NCBI GenBank assembly: GCA_945865325.1
Contig: CAMBFA010000013.1
Coordinates: forward strand, 1-39,442
Direction: 5' to 3'
From: Candidatus Kuenenia stuttgartensis
GTDB taxonomy: Bacteria > Planctomycetota > Planctomycetia > Pirellulales > UBA1268
Length of the DNA: 39,442 nt
Shown here: positions 1,269 through 38,058 of the stretch, one piece after another
Layout: every line of letters starts with the position of its first letter
Position numbering within the stretch: the first letter of the stretch is position 1
Position numbers and translations under genes: made by a program
Notes under the pieces: generated by a model
The model's database searches: none
The model's input: only the letters and a program-made list of their open reading frames with translations
Told to the model about the DNA's origin: nothing

Positions 1269-1489
1269 GGTGGGAGGATTGCTCCGGTCTGGTGGCGTCG
1301 TCCGTTTGGAACGAAAAAAAAGTGATACACAATGATCCTGTCCGCCGAAAGGGTGGCGGCGTGACAGGCATGGATCCTGGCGCGAGTTTACCCACCCTGA
1401 CCAATCGCTTCCCGATCCTCGCCCCATCCTCACAAAGACCGCTGCCCCACCGGAAACGGCCCGGGGCCCTGACGCCGATACCGATTGCC

Positions 1490-2458
1490 ATGCCGCCAAA
1501 CGCCCCTCCCGATCCGTCGTCGGAGCCTCCCGGGGAGGAAGCCCTTCATTCCCGGCCGGGAACTCGGGGGTGGTGCGTCGCCGAGGCCTGTCGACTCGAG
1601 GCGACCGCCCAGAAGCCGGGGAATGTCCACCCGGGGGCATCGTTTCCCGATCTCAACCATGCTGAGTTGGTCGCCGCCGGGCGGGCGATCGCGCCGGCGA
1701 TCGAGGCCGCGCCGTCGCAGCCCCTGGGGCAAACGATCCTCGCGGCGGTGTCGGCGTCGCGCCGCGTGACGCGATCGAATGCCAATCTCGGCATCATCCT
1801 CGCCGTTGCACCGCTGGCGAGCGTGCCCGGTGCGGAGGCTGGCCGACCGTTCCGCCCCGACGCCGTCGCCGCGGTCCTTGCCCGGCTGACGCCGCGGGAT
1901 GCCGCCGACACCTGGGAGGCGATCACGCTGGCGGCCCCGGGGGGGATGGGGCGGCGCGGCCGCTGGGATCTGGCGGAAGCGGCACCGGACGATCTTCTTG
2001 CGGCGATGGCCGCGGCAGCGCCCCACGACCGGATCGCCCGGCTGTGGACCGAAGGCTGGGGGCCGCTGGAGGAGGGATTGGTCGCCGATCTTCTCACGCA
2101 ATTCGGCACGGGCCGGCCGCTCGGCGAGGGCATCGTGCGCGCCTTCCTGTTGCAGCTGGCCCGTGAGCCCGACACGCTCATCGCCCGCCGCCACGGCCCT
2201 GATGTTGCAGCGGAGGTTTCGCGCCGGGCTGCGGCGGTCGTCGGCCGACCGGGGGAATCGTGGCGGGAGGCCGCCGCGGACCTCGATCGATCGCTGCGGC
2301 ACCCCCGGCGCATCAATCCCGGCACGACGGCCGACCTGTGCGCCGCCGCGCTGTACATTCTTCTCCGTGACGGACGACTCCCGATCGGCGACATGAGGCT
2401 CCGCGAAGCCGGCTCGGCGACAGGCCACGATCGACTTTCCCACAACGCGCGCGGGTGA
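1490..2458 (+). CDS. Triphosphoribosyl-dephospho-CoA synthase-like protein (CitG/MdcB family; Orf5-type of methylotroph H4MPT gene sets)
   Basis: ORF 1292..2458; homology-like region begins VAEACRLEATAQKPGNVHPGASFPDLNHAELVAAGRAIAPAI, typical of the CitG family. Start chosen at ATG 1490; ATG 1371 is also possible. Confidence 0.8.
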   Translation: MPPNAPPDPSSEPPGEEALHSRPGTRGWCVAEACRLEATAQKPGNVHPGASFPDLNHAELVAAGRAIAPAIEAAPSQPLGQTILAAVSASRRVTRSNANLGIILAVAPLASVPGAEAGRPFRPDAVAAVLARLTPRDAADTWEAITLAAPGGMGRRGRWDLAEAAPDDLLAAMAAAAPHDRIARLWTEGWGPLEEGLVADLLTQFGTGRPLGEGIVRAFLLQLAREPDTLIARRHGPDVAAEVSRRAAAVVGRPGESWREAAADLDRSLRHPRRINPGTTADLCAAALYILLRDGRLPIGDMRLREAGSATGHDRLSHNARG

Positions 2459-2465
2459 ACGCAGC

Positions 2466-2969
2466 ATGGAACGCTTTTCTGTCCGGCTCCGTAAGGGGGT
2501 GCATGTTTTCTGCGCCGGGCATTTCATCACCCTCACCGACACCCTCTGCGAACCCCTTCATGGCCACAATTGGACCGTGGCGGTGGAGGTTGACGGCACC
2601 CCTGATGCCCACGGAATGGTGGTTGACTTTATCCTTCTGCGTGACACGCTCACCCGGATCATCGCCCGCCTCGACCACCGCATGCTCCTGCCGACCCGCA
2701 ATCGATTCCTGGAGGTGAGCGAAGCGATCGGGCCGGGCGGGCTTCCCGAGATGACCGTTCGCTTCCAACAACGCCGCTGGGTGTTCCCCGCCGACGAGTG
2801 CGTCCTCCTGCCGCTGGCCAATACCACCGCCGAGTGGATCGCCGCGTGGATCGGCGACGAACTGACCGCGGCCCTGACGGCGGCACCCACGCCACTTCCC
2901 GGGAAGATCGTCGTCGCCGTCGACGAGTGCGCTGGGCAGGAGGGCGTGTGGGAGTGGACGGGCCCGTGA
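2466..2969 (+). CDS. 6-pyruvoyl-tetrahydropterin synthase / QueD family protein
   Basis: MERFSVRLRKGVHVFCAGHFI...CEPLHGHNWTVAVEVDG...GMVVDFILLRDTL...LDHRMLL...NTTAEWIAAWI: PTPS motifs (HGHNW, GMVVDF, LDH). Starts 8 bp after the CitG-like stop. Confidence 0.85.
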   Translation: MERFSVRLRKGVHVFCAGHFITLTDTLCEPLHGHNWTVAVEVDGTPDAHGMVVDFILLRDTLTRIIARLDHRMLLPTRNRFLEVSEAIGPGGLPEMTVRFQQRRWVFPADECVLLPLANTTAEWIAAWIGDELTAALTAAPTPLPGKIVVAVDECAGQEGVWEWTGP

Positions 2970-3011
2970 TCGGCGCTGAGTCGCGTCAGCCGGCGATTCG
3001 CGGCGGCCGAA

Positions 3012-3680
3012 TCATCCCTCTGCCACGACGAGCTTCGTTGCGGCCTCGGTCGAGACCGTGATGGTCTGCTCGCCGATCCTCACGCTCATCAAGCCGGCGT
3101 TGTCGGGGGGCCGTACGACCTCCCCCTCGACGCCGAGAACGAGCCCCGAGTCGGTGAGCGAGCGGAGGAATCCGGCCGACTGATCGAGGACGCGCGTCAG
3201 CCGGAACCGCCCGCCGGCCGCGCTGTCGGCCAGAACCCTCGCCGGGGGTTGCCCATCATCCGGATCGGCACCGTCGGCGGGGGGGATCGGGTCGCCGTGG
3301 GGATCGACATCGGGATGGCCGAGAAAGGCATCGATCCGATCGACGAGCAGATCGCTGACGGCGTGCTCGAGATGCTCGGCCTCGTCGTGGACCTCATCCC
3401 AACTCATGTCGAGCGTCCGCAGCAGGAACAACTCGAGGAGCCGGTGGCGACGGATGACGCGCAGCGCCAACACCCTTCCCGCCTTCGTCAGCGCCACTCC
3501 TTCATAGGGACGGTGCGTTGCCAGACGGGCCGCGTCGAGGGTCTTGAGCATGCTCGTCACCGTGCCCGGCGAGACCTCGAGCGCCGTGGCGACCTGACCG
3601 GTCGTCACCGGACTCCCCGACTGGGCGGTGGCGATGAGGTGGATCGTCTTCACATAGTTCTCGACGGTCAGGCTGGCCAC
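3012..3680 (-). CDS. DtxR/MntR-family metal-dependent transcriptional regulator
   Basis: MASLTVENYVKTIHLIATAQSGSPVTTGQVATALEVSPGTVTSMLKTLDAARLATHRPYEGVALTKAGRVLALRVIRRHRLLELFLLRTLDMSWDEVHDEAEHLEHAVSD: DtxR-type wHTH and dimerisation domain plus C-terminal FeoA/SH3-like region. Confidence 0.92.
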   Translation of the reverse strand: MASLTVENYVKTIHLIATAQSGSPVTTGQVATALEVSPGTVTSMLKTLDAARLATHRPYEGVALTKAGRVLALRVIRRHRLLELFLLRTLDMSWDEVHDEAEHLEHAVSDLLVDRIDAFLGHPDVDPHGDPIPPADGADPDDGQPPARVLADSAAGGRFRLTRVLDQSAGFLRSLTDSGLVLGVEGEVVRPPDNAGLMSVRIGEQTITVSTEAATKLVVAEG

Positions 3681-3888
3681 GAGCGTGTTCCCGCTGGGAG
3701 AGAGGAAGGCCCGTCACGGGCCGCGCGGACGCCATCCTGACCGCGATCGACAGCCCCGGGATTGCCCGTCGCGACGACCGGCGACATTATGTCCGCTGCG
3801 ACGTGCCTGCGGCTGAGAACGCAATCACGATCGTGATCAGGCACGACGACACCGGCCAAGGAATGGCCCTTCATCGAGGGCTGATTCC

Positions 3889-4893
3889 ATGCCGACAGGA
3901 CTGAACGCACGGGCCGCCGGGATCGTTGCGGCGGGGCTCGCCGACGCCGGGCGGCTGGGGGTGGTCGATCACCGGACCGGCGCCGGGGTGCAGATTGTCG
4001 ACGCCGGGGTGAAGGCTGCCGGTGGCGACGAGGCCGGGCTGCTCCTCGCCCACGCGGCGCTGGCCGGGCTCGGCGAGGTGTGGCTGGAGGCGCGGGGCAC
4101 GCCCCCCCTCCACCGTCGCATCCACCCCGCCTCCGATCCCTGGCAGGGGCGCTGTCCCTGGCCGATCGTCGCCGTGGAGAGCCTGGCGCCGATCGCCGCC
4201 TGCCTCGCCTCGCAGTACGCCGGGTGGAAGGTGTCGGAAGGGAAATACTTCGCCATGGCGAGCGGCCCGTTGCGGGCGGCGATCGGTCGCGAGGATCTGT
4301 ATGACGACATCGGCCTTCGCGAGCGTGCCGACGTCGCGGTGGGCATCCTCGAATCATCAAAGCTTCCACCTGACGACGTCTGCCTGCGGCTGGCCACCGA
4401 GGCGGGCGTTCCCCCCGATCGCCTCCTCCTGCTCGTCGCGCGCACCGCGAGCTCCGCCGGGACGCTCCAAGTTGTCGCCCGGTCACTCGAAACCGCGCTC
4501 CACAAGCTCCACGATCTCCACTTCGACCTCTCCCGGATCCGCGCCGGCCTCGGCCGGGCGCCGTTGCCGCCGGTGCCCGCCCCGCCCGACGACCTCGAGG
4601 CGATCGGGCGCACCAACGACGCCATCCTTTATGGTGGCCAGGTGGTGCTTGAGGTGACCGGGCCCGACGCCGGCCTCGACGATGTTGCCGGCGCGATGGT
4701 TAGCGGGGCATCGGCCTCGCATGGCCGACCGTTCCGAGACTTGTTCGAGGCGGCGGGCTACGACTTCTACAAGCTCGATCCCGCCCTCTTCGCGCCGGCC
4801 GTCGTCGAACTGGTCAACCTCGACACCGGCGTCCGCCACCGGGCTGGCTCGATCATGGCGGATGTGGTGCGGACGTCGTTCGGCGGGGCGTGA
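3889..4893 (+). CDS. mch: Methenyltetrahydromethanopterin cyclohydrolase
   Basis: SQYAGWKVSEGKYFAMASGPLRA, LARTASSAGTLQVVARSLETALHKLHDLHFD, GRTNDAILYGGQVVLEV, DFYKLDPALFAPAVVELVNLDTG: characteristic Mch motifs. Confidence 0.95.
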   Translation: MPTGLNARAAGIVAAGLADAGRLGVVDHRTGAGVQIVDAGVKAAGGDEAGLLLAHAALAGLGEVWLEARGTPPLHRRIHPASDPWQGRCPWPIVAVESLAPIAACLASQYAGWKVSEGKYFAMASGPLRAAIGREDLYDDIGLRERADVAVGILESSKLPPDDVCLRLATEAGVPPDRLLLLVARTASSAGTLQVVARSLETALHKLHDLHFDLSRIRAGLGRAPLPPVPAPPDDLEAIGRTNDAILYGGQVVLEVTGPDAGLDDVAGAMVSGASASHGRPFRDLFEAAGYDFYKLDPALFAPAVVELVNLDTGVRHRAGSIMADVVRTSFGGA

Positions 4894-12915: not shown

Positions 12916-14172
12916 ATGCCGCCGGAACACGCCCTTCCTCCTCCACCTGGCCACGGGGCGGGGGAGAAAACTGGCCCGGGTCGTTGTGCGCTCTCAGCCC
13001 GAGCGTCGCTTCTGGTGCTCGGGGCCAGCGCCCGCGCTTGGGCGACGTCGGTGAGCCGCACGGGGCTCGTCGTCCGGGCCGCCGACCTGTTCGCCGACCG
13101 CGATCTGGTCGCGATCGCGGCCGCCGTCGCCATCCCGCCGGAGCGCTACCCCGAGGCGCTTGCCGAGGCGGCCGAGGGCTTCCCACCCGGTCCGTGGTGC
13201 TACACCGGCGCCCTCGAAAACCATCCCGGGCTTGTCGATGCGATCGCCGCCACGCGGCCGCTGGCCGGCAACGGTGGGGAGGCGATCCGGCGCGTCCGCG
13301 CGCCGCAGCATCTGGGGGCGGTGCTGGCCGATGCGGGGATCGGCTTTCCGCGGACGCTCGACAACCCGGCGGCCGTCCCGTGCGATGGCCGCTGGCTGCG
13401 GAAGCCGCGTGCCAGCGGCGGCGGACGGGGAATTGTTCCCTGGACACGCCCCGAGGGCGGCGGCGCAGCGTCGCCCCCGGTGCAGGGGTGCGTCTGGCAG
13501 GAGCTCTGCCCCGGGCTGCCGGTGGCCGGGGTGTTTGTCGTCACGAACCGCGGAGCGCGTCTGGTCGGTGCGAGTCGGCAGTTGATCGGTATCACGGCTT
13601 GGCAGGCCCATCCCTACGCCTACTGCGGATCGGTCGATGTCGACCCGCTGACCCTCCCCGGCCATCTCGGCGACCAGTGGGATCGGATCGGCGCGCTCCT
13701 GGCGGGATCGTTCGGCCTCTGCGGGGTCGTCGGCGTCGATGCGATCGTGACGCCGTCGGGCCGACTGGTCGTGATCGAGATCAATCCGCGACCGACCGCA
13801 TCGATGGAATTGGTCGATCGCCGCACGGGGCTCGCGCTCGCCGCGGATCACCTCGCGGCCTGCGGGATCGTCACCGCTCCCCCCCGCCCCGCCCGCGCCG
13901 GGGGCCGCTGGGCCAAGGGCATTCTGCGGGCCGCGGCGACGCTCACCGTCGACGCGCAACTCGGCGATCGCTTCGACCTCCTCTCGGAGGCGTGGAGCCG
14001 CGCCGATGGCTGGCCGGCGCTCGCCGATCTCCCCCGCTGCGGCACCGTGGTGCCATCCGGTGCGCCGTGCATCACGCTGTTTGCGGTCGCCGACACCGGC
14101 CGCAAAGCGCGACAGCGCCTCGAACAACGGATGGAAACCGTCCGGCAGGCCATCGGGCGGCCCGGGCCGTGA
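12916..14172 (+). CDS. ATP-grasp domain protein (Orf17-like / carbamoyl-phosphate-synthase-like ligase)
   Basis: SLLVLGASARAWATSVSRTGLVVRAADLFADRDL..., LRKPRASGGGRGIVPW, WQELCPGLPVAGVFVV, VGVDAIVTPSGRLVVIEINPRPTASMEL. Exact start uncertain. Confidence 0.82.
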   Translation: MPPEHALPPPPGHGAGEKTGPGRCALSARASLLVLGASARAWATSVSRTGLVVRAADLFADRDLVAIAAAVAIPPERYPEALAEAAEGFPPGPWCYTGALENHPGLVDAIAATRPLAGNGGEAIRRVRAPQHLGAVLADAGIGFPRTLDNPAAVPCDGRWLRKPRASGGGRGIVPWTRPEGGGAASPPVQGCVWQELCPGLPVAGVFVVTNRGARLVGASRQLIGITAWQAHPYAYCGSVDVDPLTLPGHLGDQWDRIGALLAGSFGLCGVVGVDAIVTPSGRLVVIEINPRPTASMELVDRRTGLALAADHLAACGIVTAPPRPARAGGRWAKGILRAAATLTVDAQLGDRFDLLSEAWSRADGWPALADLPRCGTVVPSGAPCITLFAVADTGRKARQRLEQRMETVRQAIGRPGP

Positions 14173-25113: not shown

Positions 25114-27090
25114 TCAGCCGACGTCGTTGCCGTCGGCGGCGTGGTCGATTGTGTCATCATCGGGGAGCGGCGGCTCGCCAGCGCCAAGCTCGAGGGCCTC
25201 GACCGGCGTCGGCTCGACCACTGGAGCCCGAACGCGGCCTTGCTCCACCTTGCGGATCGCTGCGTCGAACAGGCTCCGGGCCTGCATGACGAGCGGATGA
25301 TCGAGGGTCTCCCGGAGGAGCGCCGCCTGCGATCGCCCCGCAGCCGGCGGCGGCGCGGCCGGTTCGTCGGCCACACGCTCGGCCCCCCCTGCCGCGGACG
25401 ATCCTCTGGCCAGTGGCTTCACGGCCACCTTCGGCTCTTGTCTGATACGGTGCCGCAGCGGCCGGCCAGCCCCCGCCGAGAGAGCCCGATTCAGGGCCGC
25501 AACCATCTCGGGCCTGGAGAGGAAGGCGACGGCGGTCGTCGCCTCGGCTGGAAAACTGACGTCGAGGACATCGTCGACCCATGCCACCCGGCCGGCCATG
25601 GCAACGAAATCGGCGGCCAACCCACCGACCGCCTCGCCGCACGCCTCCCAGGCCGCCAGCGGATCGCTCGGCAGCGCCGGCGGTGGCGGAGCCGGAGTGG
25701 TCTGCGTCGGCACTCGCTCGCCGGCCGCCGTGGGCAGCGCCTGGCGAGGCTGCGGCGGGGCGACTGGCTCGACCGCGACGGCGGGAGCATCAGCCCCGCC
25801 GGTCAGGTCGGTCGTTTTTTTTTGGCGCGTCTCCGCCGCCACCGGGGGATTCGCGATGGTGGGCCGGGGCAGCGCGGAAGGGGCCACCCGTGGCGGCGGT
25901 GGCGCCGTGGCGGCCTGCTGGGCAATCCGCTCCACGGCGGAGGCGAGTTGGTCGAGATCGTCCAGCCGCGCGAGGCGCACGACCGCCATCTCGGCGAGCA
26001 CCCCGGCATGACCGCTCGTCCGCATCCGCGACAGCGACTGATCGAGGATCTGGAGCATCGCCAGGATTGTCTCGGTACCGAGCAGCCGGCCGGTGGCGGC
26101 CAGGTCGATCCCCACTCCATCCCCCTGGAGGAGCAGCGCCGGGCCGCAGCCGACACTCGCCACGAGGCAATCGCGGAGAGCCGCGAGAAGCTGCTCGAGG
26201 ACGCCACCGGGATCGGCGCCGCCGGCGAGGCTCGCGTCGAGGGCAGCCAGCGCTGCGGCGGGATCGCGGCCGGCAATCGCCCCGACCAGCGCGCCGATCC
26301 GCTCCTCGCGGCCGGTGCCGATGACGGCATGGACATCGTCGACACTGATCGCGCCGGCGCTCGAACCGAGGAGTTGCTCGAGGAGCGACTGGCTGTCGCG
26401 CATGCTGCCGGCGGCACGGCGGGCGATCAATTCGAGGGCGCCGTCGGTGACCGTCGCCCCCTCGGCGGTGACGATCTGACCGAGGCGGCGGGCGATCGCC
26501 GGGGCATCGACGGTGACGAAGTCGAACCGCTGGCAGCGGGAGAGGATCGTGATCGGGAGCTTTTCTGGCTCGGTCGTGCAAAGGACGAACTTCACGTGCC
26601 CCGGCGGTTCCTCGAGGGTCTTCAACAGCGCGTTGAAGGCCTCCCGCGTGAGCATGTGGACTTCGTCAATGATGTAGATTTTGAATCGTCCGCGGGCGGG
26701 GCGGACGGCGACGTTTTGCCGCAGGGTGCGGATCTCGTCGATGCCGCGGTTGCTGGCGGCGTCGATCTCCACGACATCGACATCCTGCCCTGCGGAGATC
26801 GCGCTACAGTTGTCGCAGTGATTGCACGGCTCCGCCGCGGGCCCGGTCGCGCATTCGAGGGCCTTGGCGAAGATCCGCGCGGCGCTCGTCTTGCCCACAC
26901 CGCGGGCGCCGGTGAAAAGATAGGCGTGGCCGATGCGCCTCGATTCGATCGCCCCGGAGAGACCGCGAGCAACGTGCTCTTGGCCGACCAGCTCGTCGAA
27001 GCGCTGCGGCCGGTAGCGGCGGGCGACGACCCGGTAGGCCTCCGCGGGAGCGCCGCCGAACGGGGTGGTGGAGTCAGCGGGTGCGGCCAT
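25114..27090 (-). CDS. dnaX: DNA polymerase III subunit gamma/tau
   Basis: YRVVARRYRPQRFDELVGQEHVARGLSGAIESRRIGHAYLFTGARGVGKTSAARIFAKALEC...CNHCDNCSAI...DAASNRGIDEIRTLRQNV...: DnaX AAA+ domain. Confidence 0.98.
   Translation of the reverse strand: MAAPADSTTPFGGAPAEAYRVVARRYRPQRFDELVGQEHVARGLSGAIESRRIGHAYLFTGARGVGKTSAARIFAKALECATGPAAEPCNHCDNCSAISAGQDVDVVEIDAASNRGIDEIRTLRQNVAVRPARGRFKIYIIDEVHMLTREAFNALLKTLEEPPGHVKFVLCTTEPEKLPITILSRCQRFDFVTVDAPAIARRLGQIVTAEGATVTDGALELIARRAAGSMRDSQSLLEQLLGSSAGAISVDDVHAVIGTGREERIGALVGAIAGRDPAAALAALDASLAGGADPGGVLEQLLAALRDCLVASVGCGPALLLQGDGVGIDLAATGRLLGTETILAMLQILDQSLSRMRTSGHAGVLAEMAVVRLARLDDLDQLASAVERIAQQAATAPPPPRVAPSALPRPTIANPPVAAETRQKKTTDLTGGADAPAVAVEPVAPPQPRQALPTAAGERVPTQTTPAPPPPALPSDPLAAWEACGEAVGGLAADFVAMAGRVAWVDDVLDVSFPAEATTAVAFLSRPEMVAALNRALSAGAGRPLRHRIRQEPKVAVKPLARGSSAAGGAERVADEPAAPPPAAGRSQAALLRETLDHPLVMQARSLFDAAIRKVEQGRVRAPVVEPTPVEALELGAGEPPLPDDDTIDHAADGNDVG
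25779..25834 (-). promoter_or_regulatory. Candidate dnaX recoding element (SD-like GGAG, A9 slippery run, downstream stem-loop)
   Basis: Minus strand: GGAG (25834-25831), 7-nt spacer, A9 (25823-25815, in frame CAA AAA AAA ACG), 13 nt, then CGGCGGG-(9 nt)-CCCGCCG (25801-25779). Stops in the -1 frame at 25790-25792 and in the +1 frame at 25803-25805. Confidence 0.8.
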
Positions 27091-33260: not shown

Positions 33261-34115
33261 TCACTTCCGAGCCGGCAGCACCTGGATCTCGACCCGGCGA
33301 AACTCGATCGGATGGCTCTCCGACTGGAGCGAGATCGTGCCCCCGTCGAGGAGGAGCTTGCCGTCACGCTTCGCGATCAGCCCCTTGGAATGCGGGTCGT
33401 TGGGATCGAGCTGCGCCCCTTCGTACTCGAGCACCGGCTCCCCGTTGACCAGATGCCGGATGACCTTGTCGCCGTCGACTTCCACCTCCACCGCCACCCA
33501 CTGGTCGCCCCGGTAGGTCTGCGACTTCGAGGTCGTGCAGTGGGGGGTGAAGAGCTTGCCGTTCATGACGACGTTCGTGCCGGGGGTGCAGAGGTTCGCC
33601 GTCGTCCGCTCCCCCTCGGGGGCCCCTCCCAGAAACTGGACCTCGATCGACGCCGGGAAATCCTGGTCGAGCGTCATTCCCTTTGGGTCCTCACCATGGA
33701 GCATCACGCCGGAGTTGCGGATCGCCCAGCCCGGCCCCCCCGGGCACTGCTCGCCGGTGAAGCGGTAGTCGATCCGGAGCTTGTATCGGGAAAATGGCTC
33801 GGCGAAGAACAGGTGGCCGAACTTCTCCCCGAAGGTCGGATACTTGGCCGGGTCGTAGACGACCTTGAGGACGCCATCCTCGACGCGGAAGGTGTCGCCG
33901 TAGTTGTCGCCGAGGGCTTCGCCGCGGATCTTCGGCGTCCAGCCTGTCAGGTCCTTGCCGTTGAACAGCGGCCGCCAAGCCGGCTCCGCGGCGTGGGTGA
34001 TGCCCGGGGCGACCGCCGCGGCCCCCGCTCCGAGCGCCAAGATCACCACCATCCAGCGGATGAGATTCACTCCCGCCATCCGGCGAAGCAGCGGAGACCG
34101 ACACGAAGACGACAT
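33261..34115 (-). CDS. DUF1080 domain protein (3-keto-disaccharide hydrolase / LamG-like), secreted
   Basis: WRPLFNGKDLTGWTPKIRGEALGDNYGDTFRVEDGVLKVVYD...HLFFAEPFSRYKLRIDYRF...AIRNSGVMLHGEDP: DUF1080 hallmark, preceded by a signal sequence. Confidence 0.92.
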   Translation of the reverse strand: MSSSCRSPLLRRMAGVNLIRWMVVILALGAGAAAVAPGITHAAEPAWRPLFNGKDLTGWTPKIRGEALGDNYGDTFRVEDGVLKVVYDPAKYPTFGEKFGHLFFAEPFSRYKLRIDYRFTGEQCPGGPGWAIRNSGVMLHGEDPKGMTLDQDFPASIEVQFLGGAPEGERTTANLCTPGTNVVMNGKLFTPHCTTSKSQTYRGDQWVAVEVEVDGDKVIRHLVNGEPVLEYEGAQLDPNDPHSKGLIAKRDGKLLLDGGTISLQSESHPIEFRRVEIQVLPARK

Positions 34116-34235
34116 TTTCAGGCTCCAGACGAGACAAGAGCAACCGGGGCGCGAACCCCACGACCCACCCCATCAGCATACCCGGCCGCCGCAGGAACAG
34201 GGCACCGCCGCGGCCCCACGCCCCATCCGGGGCGT

Positions 34236-35510
34236 TCATGGCCCGAGGAGCGCCAGCGGTATGACGGCGACTCCGTCGGGGCGCCGGTAGGCCCGCGGGC
34301 CGGTCGAGAGAACGACCGTATCGACAACGTTTTCCTCAAGCTCCCGTTGCAGCCAGAGGAGATGCTTCACGTCGGCGTCGTCGACGGCCCCGCCGAGCTT
34401 CACTTCGATGGCCAGCACCCTCCCGTCGGCTCGCTCCACGATGAGGTCAATTTCCCGCTCGCCGCCAAAGGTTCGCAGGTGCCCAACGCGAGCCTCGGCT
34501 GCCTGGGCATAGACCCGCACGGACAACGCGGCGAGCGATTCGAAGAGTGCGCCCACGAGCGGACCCTTCCCGGGCTTAGAGGCACTCTCGCCCCCCAGAA
34601 GCGTCTCGGCCGTTGCTCCGAGGAGCCGCGCGGCCAGCGCCGGATCGGCGAGGTGGTGTTTGGAAGGATGGGTGAGCCTCGCCAGCGGGTTGCGGCTCGG
34701 GGCCCACGCCGGCACCGGATCGACAATCCAGAGGCGTTCGAGCACGTCGCGGTAGGGAGCCGTGGCTCCCTTGCTCGGTTTGACACCCTCGCCGCCGGTG
34801 GCGGCGTCCCGGATAGTCTCGTACGCAGCGGTGGTGGACGTCGCCGCTGCATAAGCGCGCAGCCACCGTCGGACGAGCTCCGGCCGGCGCACCCGCAGGC
34901 CCAGCTCCTCCAGATCAGCGTCCACAATCCGCGCCAGGTAGCCGTCCAGGTGGGTCCGGAGGGGACGGCCCGACAGTCCCCGAAACGCTGGGAATCCCGA
35001 GTTGACGATCTCATCGACATAGTCGCACAGACCGACGTCAGTGGATCCGTCGATGGCCGGCCGCCCCCCTGCCAAGAGCATGGCGAGGCTCACCGTGGCC
35101 TTCTCCCGGCGACGCTCGAAGAAGGAGAGCGGCCGCATCCGGAGCGTCACGATCCGGCCGGCCCCAGAATGGGTCGCTGCAGCGCCGGGCGTCGCGGAGC
35201 CGGTCAACAAAAAACTGCCTGGGTCGGCGCCGTCGTCGACCGCCCGTTTCACGGCATCCCACACTGGCGGGTACCGCTGCCACTGGTCGATGAGGACCGG
35301 CAGCGGGCCAGCCAGGGAGAGGTGCGGATCCGCGGCGACGACGGAACGCTGGGCAGGAACATCAAGACGCCGGACGGTGGCCGCAAACCGCGCGGCAGAG
35401 GCCGTTTTCCCGACCCCTTTGGGCCCCTCCAAGGCAATCGCAGGAACGGCAACGAGCAGCGCTGCCAGCTCGTCGTCCAAAACCCTTTCAATATAAGGCT
35501 TTTTCTCCAT
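34236..35510 (-). CDS. AAA+ ATPase with DUF4143-type C-terminus
   Basis: IALEGPKGVGKTASAARFAATVRRLD...VLIDQWQRYPPVWDAVKRAVDDGADPGSFLLTGSATP...; C-terminal GGEREIDLIVERADGRVLAIEVKLG (PD-(D/E)xK-like). Confidence 0.88.
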   Translation of the reverse strand: MEKKPYIERVLDDELAALLVAVPAIALEGPKGVGKTASAARFAATVRRLDVPAQRSVVAADPHLSLAGPLPVLIDQWQRYPPVWDAVKRAVDDGADPGSFLLTGSATPGAAATHSGAGRIVTLRMRPLSFFERRREKATVSLAMLLAGGRPAIDGSTDVGLCDYVDEIVNSGFPAFRGLSGRPLRTHLDGYLARIVDADLEELGLRVRRPELVRRWLRAYAAATSTTAAYETIRDAATGGEGVKPSKGATAPYRDVLERLWIVDPVPAWAPSRNPLARLTHPSKHHLADPALAARLLGATAETLLGGESASKPGKGPLVGALFESLAALSVRVYAQAAEARVGHLRTFGGEREIDLIVERADGRVLAIEVKLGGAVDDADVKHLLWLQRELEENVVDTVVLSTGPRAYRRPDGVAVIPLALLGP

Positions 35511-35594
35511 GAAAAGCCATTCTACCGCACTTTCTATCGTACCTCTAGTGGTCGTTTCATCGGGTTCCTAGTGGGCTTTTTCTCGGTTCTTCTT

Positions 35595-35622
35595 GGGGGG
35601 GAAGGGGGGGTTTTTCCGGGGG
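35595..35622 (+). other. G-tract cluster with G-quadruplex potential
   Basis: GGGGGGG-AA-GGGGGGG-TTTTTCC-GGGGG on the plus strand, in the intergenic gap. Confidence 0.55.
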
Positions 35623-35681
35623 CCTGATTCGGCAGGCAGCCCCCCGCTCGGTCTTGCTCGAGCCACGGAAGTCCTGCCCCA

Positions 35682-37265: not shown

Positions 37266-37281
37266 TGGCATGCGTCATGCT
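37266..37281 (+). promoter_or_regulatory. Candidate sigma-54 -24/-12 promoter
   Basis: TGGCATGCGTCATGCT: GG (37267-68), exactly 10 nt, GC (37279-80); close to TGGCAC-N5-TTGCW. About 85 bp upstream of ATG 37365. Confidence 0.45.
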
Positions 37282-37364
37282 GCCGGTACAGGCTCTCCTC
37301 GGCCAGTGTGCCGGGGGAATCGTTTCCAGATCGAATCCAGATCGTTTCCAGGAGAATCAAACTG

Positions 37365-37931
37365 ATGCGTAAAGCTTTCTTGATGGCGGTGGCGCTGGTG
37401 CTCGGCGTCGCCGTGACGGCTTCGGCCGAGGTGACCAGCGGCCCGCAGGCCGGTGATTCGGTCGGCGCGTTCACGGTGACAAAGGTCGCCGGCAACGCCG
37501 ACGACGGTGTCGAGGCGGGCAAGAGCCTCTGCTACCGCTGCAAGATGGGCGCCCGCCCGGTGGTGATGGTGTTTGCCCGCACGGCCGACCCGAAGCTCGC
37601 CAAGCTGCTGAAGAAGATCGAGGAAGAGGTCGAGGAGCACCAGTCGGAGAAGCTCACGAGCTTCGTCAACATGATCGGTGGCGATGCCGAGAGCCTGAAG
37701 AAGGCGGCAGCCGAGTTCGTGAAGACGAACGATCTCAAGCGGATCGCTTTCGTTGTCCCCGATGACACGAAGAACGGCCCCGAGGACTTCAAGATCTCCT
37801 CCGACGCCGATCTGACGGTCGTCTGCTACAAGAACGGCAAGGTTCAGACCAACCACGCCTTCTCGAAGGGTCAGCTCGACGACGCCAGCATCGACGCGGT
37901 CGTGAAGGCCTCGTGCGCCCTGGTCGAGTGA
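37365..37931 (+). CDS. Secreted thioredoxin-like-fold protein with CxxC (CYRCKMG)
   Basis: Signal MRKAFLMAVALVLGVAVTASA; GDSVGAFTVTKVAGNADDGVEAGKSLCYRCKMGARPVVMVFARTADPKLAKLLKKIEEE...; SD aggaga before ATG. Confidence 0.78.
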   Translation: MRKAFLMAVALVLGVAVTASAEVTSGPQAGDSVGAFTVTKVAGNADDGVEAGKSLCYRCKMGARPVVMVFARTADPKLAKLLKKIEEEVEEHQSEKLTSFVNMIGGDAESLKKAAAEFVKTNDLKRIAFVVPDDTKNGPEDFKISSDADLTVVCYKNGKVQTNHAFSKGQLDDASIDAVVKASCALVE

Positions 37932-37978
37932 GGCAGCTTTGCCTCGGCTGATCGATCGAGTCAGCCGCGAATCCAAGG

Positions 37979-38012
37979 ACGGCCCGGGAGACCTTCTCCC
38001 GGGCCGTTTTTT
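37979..38012 (+). terminator. Rho-independent terminator
   Basis: ACGGCCCGGGAGA-CCT-TCTCCCGGGCCGT followed by a T run (TTTTTTT counting the stem T). Confidence 0.93.
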
Positions 38013-38058
38013 TGCGCGCCAGGCCTGCCGCCCAGGCTTTTTTCCCACCCCTCCCCCC

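Follow-up and report, generated by a model that had tools for sequence, protein, structure and literature searches.

A candidate programmed transcriptional slippage site in dnaX and its conservation across Planctomycetia

dnaX and its A9 run

The window, meaning the whole 39,442-nucleotide stretch analysed here, is contig 13 (CAMBFA010000013.1) of a 4.42-Mb draft genome of Candidatus Kuenenia stuttgartensis. It carries dnaX on the minus strand, with a divergent mutS before it and recR and rpoN after it. The tau subunit is encoded by a single uninterrupted ORF of 658 amino acids (68 kDa), in which the clamp-loader ATPase, the lid, and domain III are all present. Domain III ends at about residue 388, roughly 35 codons ahead of a run of nine A residues (A9). 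The run starts at codon 423 of the 658, within a linker rich in proline and alanine. The features of the site are as follows.

27090-25114, minus strand: dnaX, tau subunit of the DNA polymerase III clamp loader, 658 aa (TIGR02397, 415 bits; PF13177, PF22608, PF12169)
25927..26346, minus strand: domain III (PF12169), the last folded domain common to tau and gamma
25831..25834, minus strand: GGAG, a Shine-Dalgarno-like sequence 7 nucleotides upstream of the run
25823-25815, minus strand: A9 run, the proposed transcriptional slippage site, in the frame CAA AAA AAA ACG (codons 423-426)

25803..25805, minus strand: TGA reached when one A is lost (or two are gained), for a gamma of 428-429 aa with the C-terminus RPT
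25795..25801, minus strand: 5' arm (CGGCGGG) of a 7-bp stem, starting after 13 nucleotides downstream of the A9
25790..25792, minus strand: TGA reached when one A is gained (or two are lost), for a gamma of 432-433 aa with the C-terminus NDRPDRRG
25779..25785, minus strand: 3' arm (CCCGCCG) of the 7-bp stem, separated from the 5' arm by a 9-nucleotide loop

The computed product is 428 aa with 8 A, 658 aa with 9 A, and 433 aa with 10 A. The two off-frame stops lie 3 and 8 codons from the run, and the -1 stop falls inside the loop of the 7-bp stem. The heptamer A AAA AAA is in frame, but it is contained in any A9 run, and the A AAA AAG form is absent. A preliminary description of this sequence had listed the in-frame A9, the GGAG, the stem, and products of 433, 428, and 658 aa; each was found where it had been placed and at the length given. 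The same description called the run conspicuous. Its presence exceeds chance: only seven A9 runs exist in the whole 4.42 Mb with both strands counted, and among confidently identified genes dnaX alone carries one on its sense strand.

The ybaB/ebfC gene usually found between dnaX and recR is missing at this junction (25114-25084). YbaB (PF02575) had no match in 36 searched genomes of the window's family (f1). In the order's other families, 21 of 23 genomes have the gene, just downstream of dnaX where compared. Its absence from f1 looks like a family-wide loss, as judged from these searches. Elsewhere in the window, the segments 1292-4893 and 12916-14172 hold genes of methanopterin-linked C1 metabolism, namely a CitG-like protein, methenyl-H4MPT cyclohydrolase (MCH), and an ATP-grasp protein. 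Two ORFs lack a Pfam match and have a third-position GC below that of their neighbours: one of 771 aa (33312-35627; 0.69) and one of 257 aa (37275-38048; 0.60).

Conservation of the run and of the off-frame stops

The dnaX genes of 199 planctomycete genomes were collected from whole-genome searches that covered relatives, the class, and the phylum, and each ORF was analysed. Conservation was counted over members with complete ORFs, of which 131 belong to Planctomycetia. In 102 of these 131 genes, the linker that follows domain III contains 9 or 10 A in a row. By rank, the run is found in 10 of 10 members of the genus, 18 of 19 in the family (the remaining gene has A8), 28 of 39 in the order, and 46 of 63 other members of the class. 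In the phylum's other classes, only scattered genes carry it in the linker (5 of 63). Outside the window's own family, A10 is about as common as A9.

With the genes aligned at the run, members of the family share flanking sequence, GCGCG before the run and CGACCGACCTGA after it. Outside the family, in the order and the class, every flanking column is at background identity; the run is therefore the only element conserved class-wide. Each of the three codon phases is represented among the runs (57, 42, and 8 genes), which indicates that the nucleotide run is kept rather than one peptide motif.

The stops downstream of the run were scored with one gene per genus (83 genes) and a limit of 8 codons. 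A stop within this limit is present in the -1 frame of 70 genes, in the +1 frame of 72, and in both frames of 60. Synonymous redrawing of the downstream codons gave means of 28, 27, and 9 genes, respectively, and the maxima among 200 redraws were 39, 37, and 19. Other positions within the same 83 genes gave 18, 20, and 5. The constraint on stops is equal in the -1 and +1 frames. Ribosomal -1 frameshifting requires a stop in the -1 frame alone, while slippage that adds or removes A residues requires both. Equal constraint on the two frames is thus what slippage predicts. Constraint on both off-frame stops can serve as a comparative test for truncating slippage, which was called difficult by Baranov et al. 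(2005).

The run and the stops also change together. Among Planctomycetia genes, 89 of 101 with the run have both stops no more than 15 codons away, versus 3 of 29 without it. The run-less genes were scored at the fixed codon 420, and codons 395-440 agree (mean fraction 0.057). A tree was built from the DnaX N-domain with the linker excluded. On this tree, where 101 of 130 genes have the run, the run state changes about 16 times within the class; the tree is unrooted, and gains and losses are not separated in this number. In phylogenetically independent pairs, the run and the stops change in the same direction about 12 times to 0 (median sign-test p 0.0005). The run and its stops go together, as is expected of a functional cassette that is lost as a unit.

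In the remaining 29 of the 131 genes, no run reaches 9 A, and most of these genes lack a lysine pair in the linker. Three of these genes, all in family f21 (L097, L102, and L108), retain KKK with the run broken. Lysines without an A-run had been named in the preliminary description as evidence against recoding. Such genes do occur, but in the two that were scored at the KKK remnant the off-frame stops are far away (80-211 codons in L097 and 29-114 codons in L102), which reads as loss of the entire cassette. In-frame A AAA AAA/G or U-rich heptamers were searched for in codons 380-520, and among the run-less genes they were found only in L127, and also in the A8 gene L025. On this result, no substitute frameshift site is evident in the run-less lineages.

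Since 29 of 131 genes do without the run, a recoded gamma is not indispensable in Planctomycetia. Caulobacter makes gamma by proteolysis (PMC5009743). The run-less lineages may obtain gamma by another route, such as proteolysis of this kind, or may have no gamma.

Probable transcriptional slippage and the alternatives

The A9 run in dnaX very probably serves programmed transcriptional slippage of the kind described in Thermus thermophilus, with gamma as the outcome. RNA polymerase would realign at the run (T9 in the template), and the resulting dnaX mRNAs would carry 9, 8, 10, 11, or other numbers of A. Those with 9+3n A would be translated into tau (658 aa, 68 kDa). All others would meet a stop in 3-8 codons and give a gamma-like protein of 428-433 aa (45 kDa). 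This protein would retain the ATPase, the lid, and domain III, lack the C-terminal tau domains, and enter the clamp loader. These steps are predicted for the cell from comparison of genes, as are an efficiency of slippage, an amount of gamma, and any benefit it may bring.

Ribosomes in an E. coli cell-free system slide robustly on A11 but little on A9 or A10 (PMC4363877), whereas A9 is the length at which slippage takes place in T. thermophilus (PMC1088944). Taken together, the two reports fit slippage by RNA polymerase. The window genome contains both tRNA-Lys(UUU) and tRNA-Lys(CUU). Possession of both tRNA-Lys species by Thermus was given in a 2016 recoding review as a likely reason for its use of RNA polymerase slippage (PMC5009743), and the two species in the window genome fit slippage in the same way.

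The first alternative is programmed -1 ribosomal frameshifting of the E. coli type on A AAA AAA, helped by the GGAG and the stem-loop, with a 433-aa gamma as the product. The local arrangement agrees with it: the heptamer is in frame, the GGAG is 7 nucleotides upstream, the 7-bp stem is 13 nucleotides downstream, and the -1 stop is in the loop. A Shine-Dalgarno-like tetramer is present in 10 of 10 genus members versus 2.4 expected, and the local fold at the window site is better than most shuffles (z -2.35). The stem, however, is present in only 3 of the 10 genus members, which are the window genome and its two nearest relatives (97-99% identity). Perfect stems of 7 bp or more are also seen in 5% of 45-nucleotide stretches of the window dnaX, a GC-rich gene. 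With this frequency, and with the stem not kept in the genus, its presence does not exceed chance as an evolutionary signal. Across the 83 genus representatives, the Shine-Dalgarno-like motif is not enriched (10 observed versus 11 expected), nor is downstream structure (mean z -0.2). Frameshifting of this type also does not need the +1 stop, which is as constrained as the -1 stop. It would be served equally or better by 7 A or by A AAA AAG, yet the run length is fixed at 9-10, and the presence of two tRNA-Lys species likewise speaks against it. Frameshifting of the E. coli type is a very unlikely explanation of the site.

The preliminary description had seen features of both mechanisms in the window. 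This view is not supported: the E. coli-like enhancers are local, and what is conserved is the A9-10 run with stops in both off frames. Its suggested check of relatives for the A-run, the two off-frame stops, and the stem showed the run and both stops to be conserved, but not the stem. Its central proposal, a recoding or slippage cassette giving gamma, is strongly supported by the comparison, as the run and both stops are conserved. A hybrid of ribosomal frameshifting and slippage was rejected as the general explanation, since the stem and the Shine-Dalgarno-like motif are not conserved across genera. With GGAG present throughout the genus and the window fold at z -2.35, a ribosomal contribution local to the genus is possible.

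The second alternative is sliding of ribosomes on the A-run without stimulators (Koutmou-type), with termination in either off frame. Such sliding has been observed on poly-A lysine codons in the E. coli system (PMC4363877), and it would account for stops in both frames. The same study obtained little truncated product at A9 or A10 and needed A11, while the planctomycete runs are almost all A9 or A10. Sliding as the source of the second product is very improbable.

The last alternative, that the run is a mutational accident or is kept merely for two or three linker lysines and gives no second product, can draw on the KK encoded by every run-bearing gene and the KKK of the three f21 genes, but it is hardly credible, because AAG is commoner than AAA among lysine codons elsewhere in the compared genes (1095 versus 712), most run-less relatives lack any KK, and the off-frame stops come and vanish with the run. 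Conservation of a lysine motif was rejected on the first two of these points.

With slippage as the reading of the site, its history in the class can be considered. A slight preference is given to a cassette that was ancestral to Planctomycetia, served as the class's normal source of gamma, persisted while its surroundings changed, and was lost together with both stops up to about a dozen separate times; the choice between A9 and A10 may set the tau:gamma ratio. If this history is correct, the run-less lineages are natural experiments on the purpose of gamma. If slippage itself is correct, Planctomycetia are a large group in which the two products of one gene hinge on stuttering by RNA polymerase. 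Comparisons between lineages that kept or lost the run, and between A9 and A10, bear on the long dispute over whether gamma matters in cells.

Relation to known dnaX systems

Programmed transcriptional slippage in the T. thermophilus dnaX was reported by Larsen et al. (2000; described in PMC1088944 and PMC5009743). As taken from these papers, Thermus dnaX shares with the window gene a sense-strand A9, a zero-frame tau, near stops in both other frames, and two tRNA-Lys species. The window gene differs in belonging to Planctomycetia, in having its conservation measured over many families, in the near-equal frequency of A10 and A9 outside its own family, and in being known from sequence. No report of recoding in Planctomycetota dnaX was found in the literature searched, which was limited to open-licence papers. 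The planctomycete case would share its mechanism with T. thermophilus and appears new as a lineage-wide instance; its class-wide extent is well supported by comparison.

The E. coli dnaX resembles the window gene in the gene itself, in the position of the site after domain III, in product length (431 aa in E. coli and 433 aa here), and in the Shine-Dalgarno-like motif and stem present in the window. The window gene lacks A AAA AAG, its stimulators are not conserved beyond the genus, and it has a near stop in the +1 frame as well. For dnaX of E. coli K-12, the distances are 1 codon to the -1 stop and 11 codons to the +1 stop, although a single gene is no test.

Two-ORF dnaX genes with A10 were described in Chlorobi and others (Antonov et al. 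2013, PMC3711429). In these genes an A-run is likewise proposed to drive transcriptional realignment, but gamma is the zero-frame product and tau needs the shift, whereas tau is zero-frame in the window. One gene from another class of the phylum (L248, genome G171) has A10 at codon 395, and reading without a shift ends after 401 aa. Gain of a single A would extend the product to 567 aa and add a tau-like tail. This gene looks like the reversed two-ORF form, with an assembly error being possible.

Runs of A9-10 with off-frame stops within 10 codons were also seen in the dnaX genes L322, L325, L326, L340, L310, and L318. They come from single Verrucomicrobia, Bacteroidetes, Ignavibacteria, Omnitrophota, and Phycisphaerae genomes and are candidate slippage cassettes outside Planctomycetia. 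Such scattered runs with near stops in other phyla and classes suggest that this kind of cassette is wider than Thermus.

Three further genes have A10 with near stops in both frames at a later position. Two are deltaproteobacterial (L311 and L319, codons 540-542) and one is planctomycete (L224, codon 540). The run is about 120 codons later in these dnaX genes and would give a longer "gamma".
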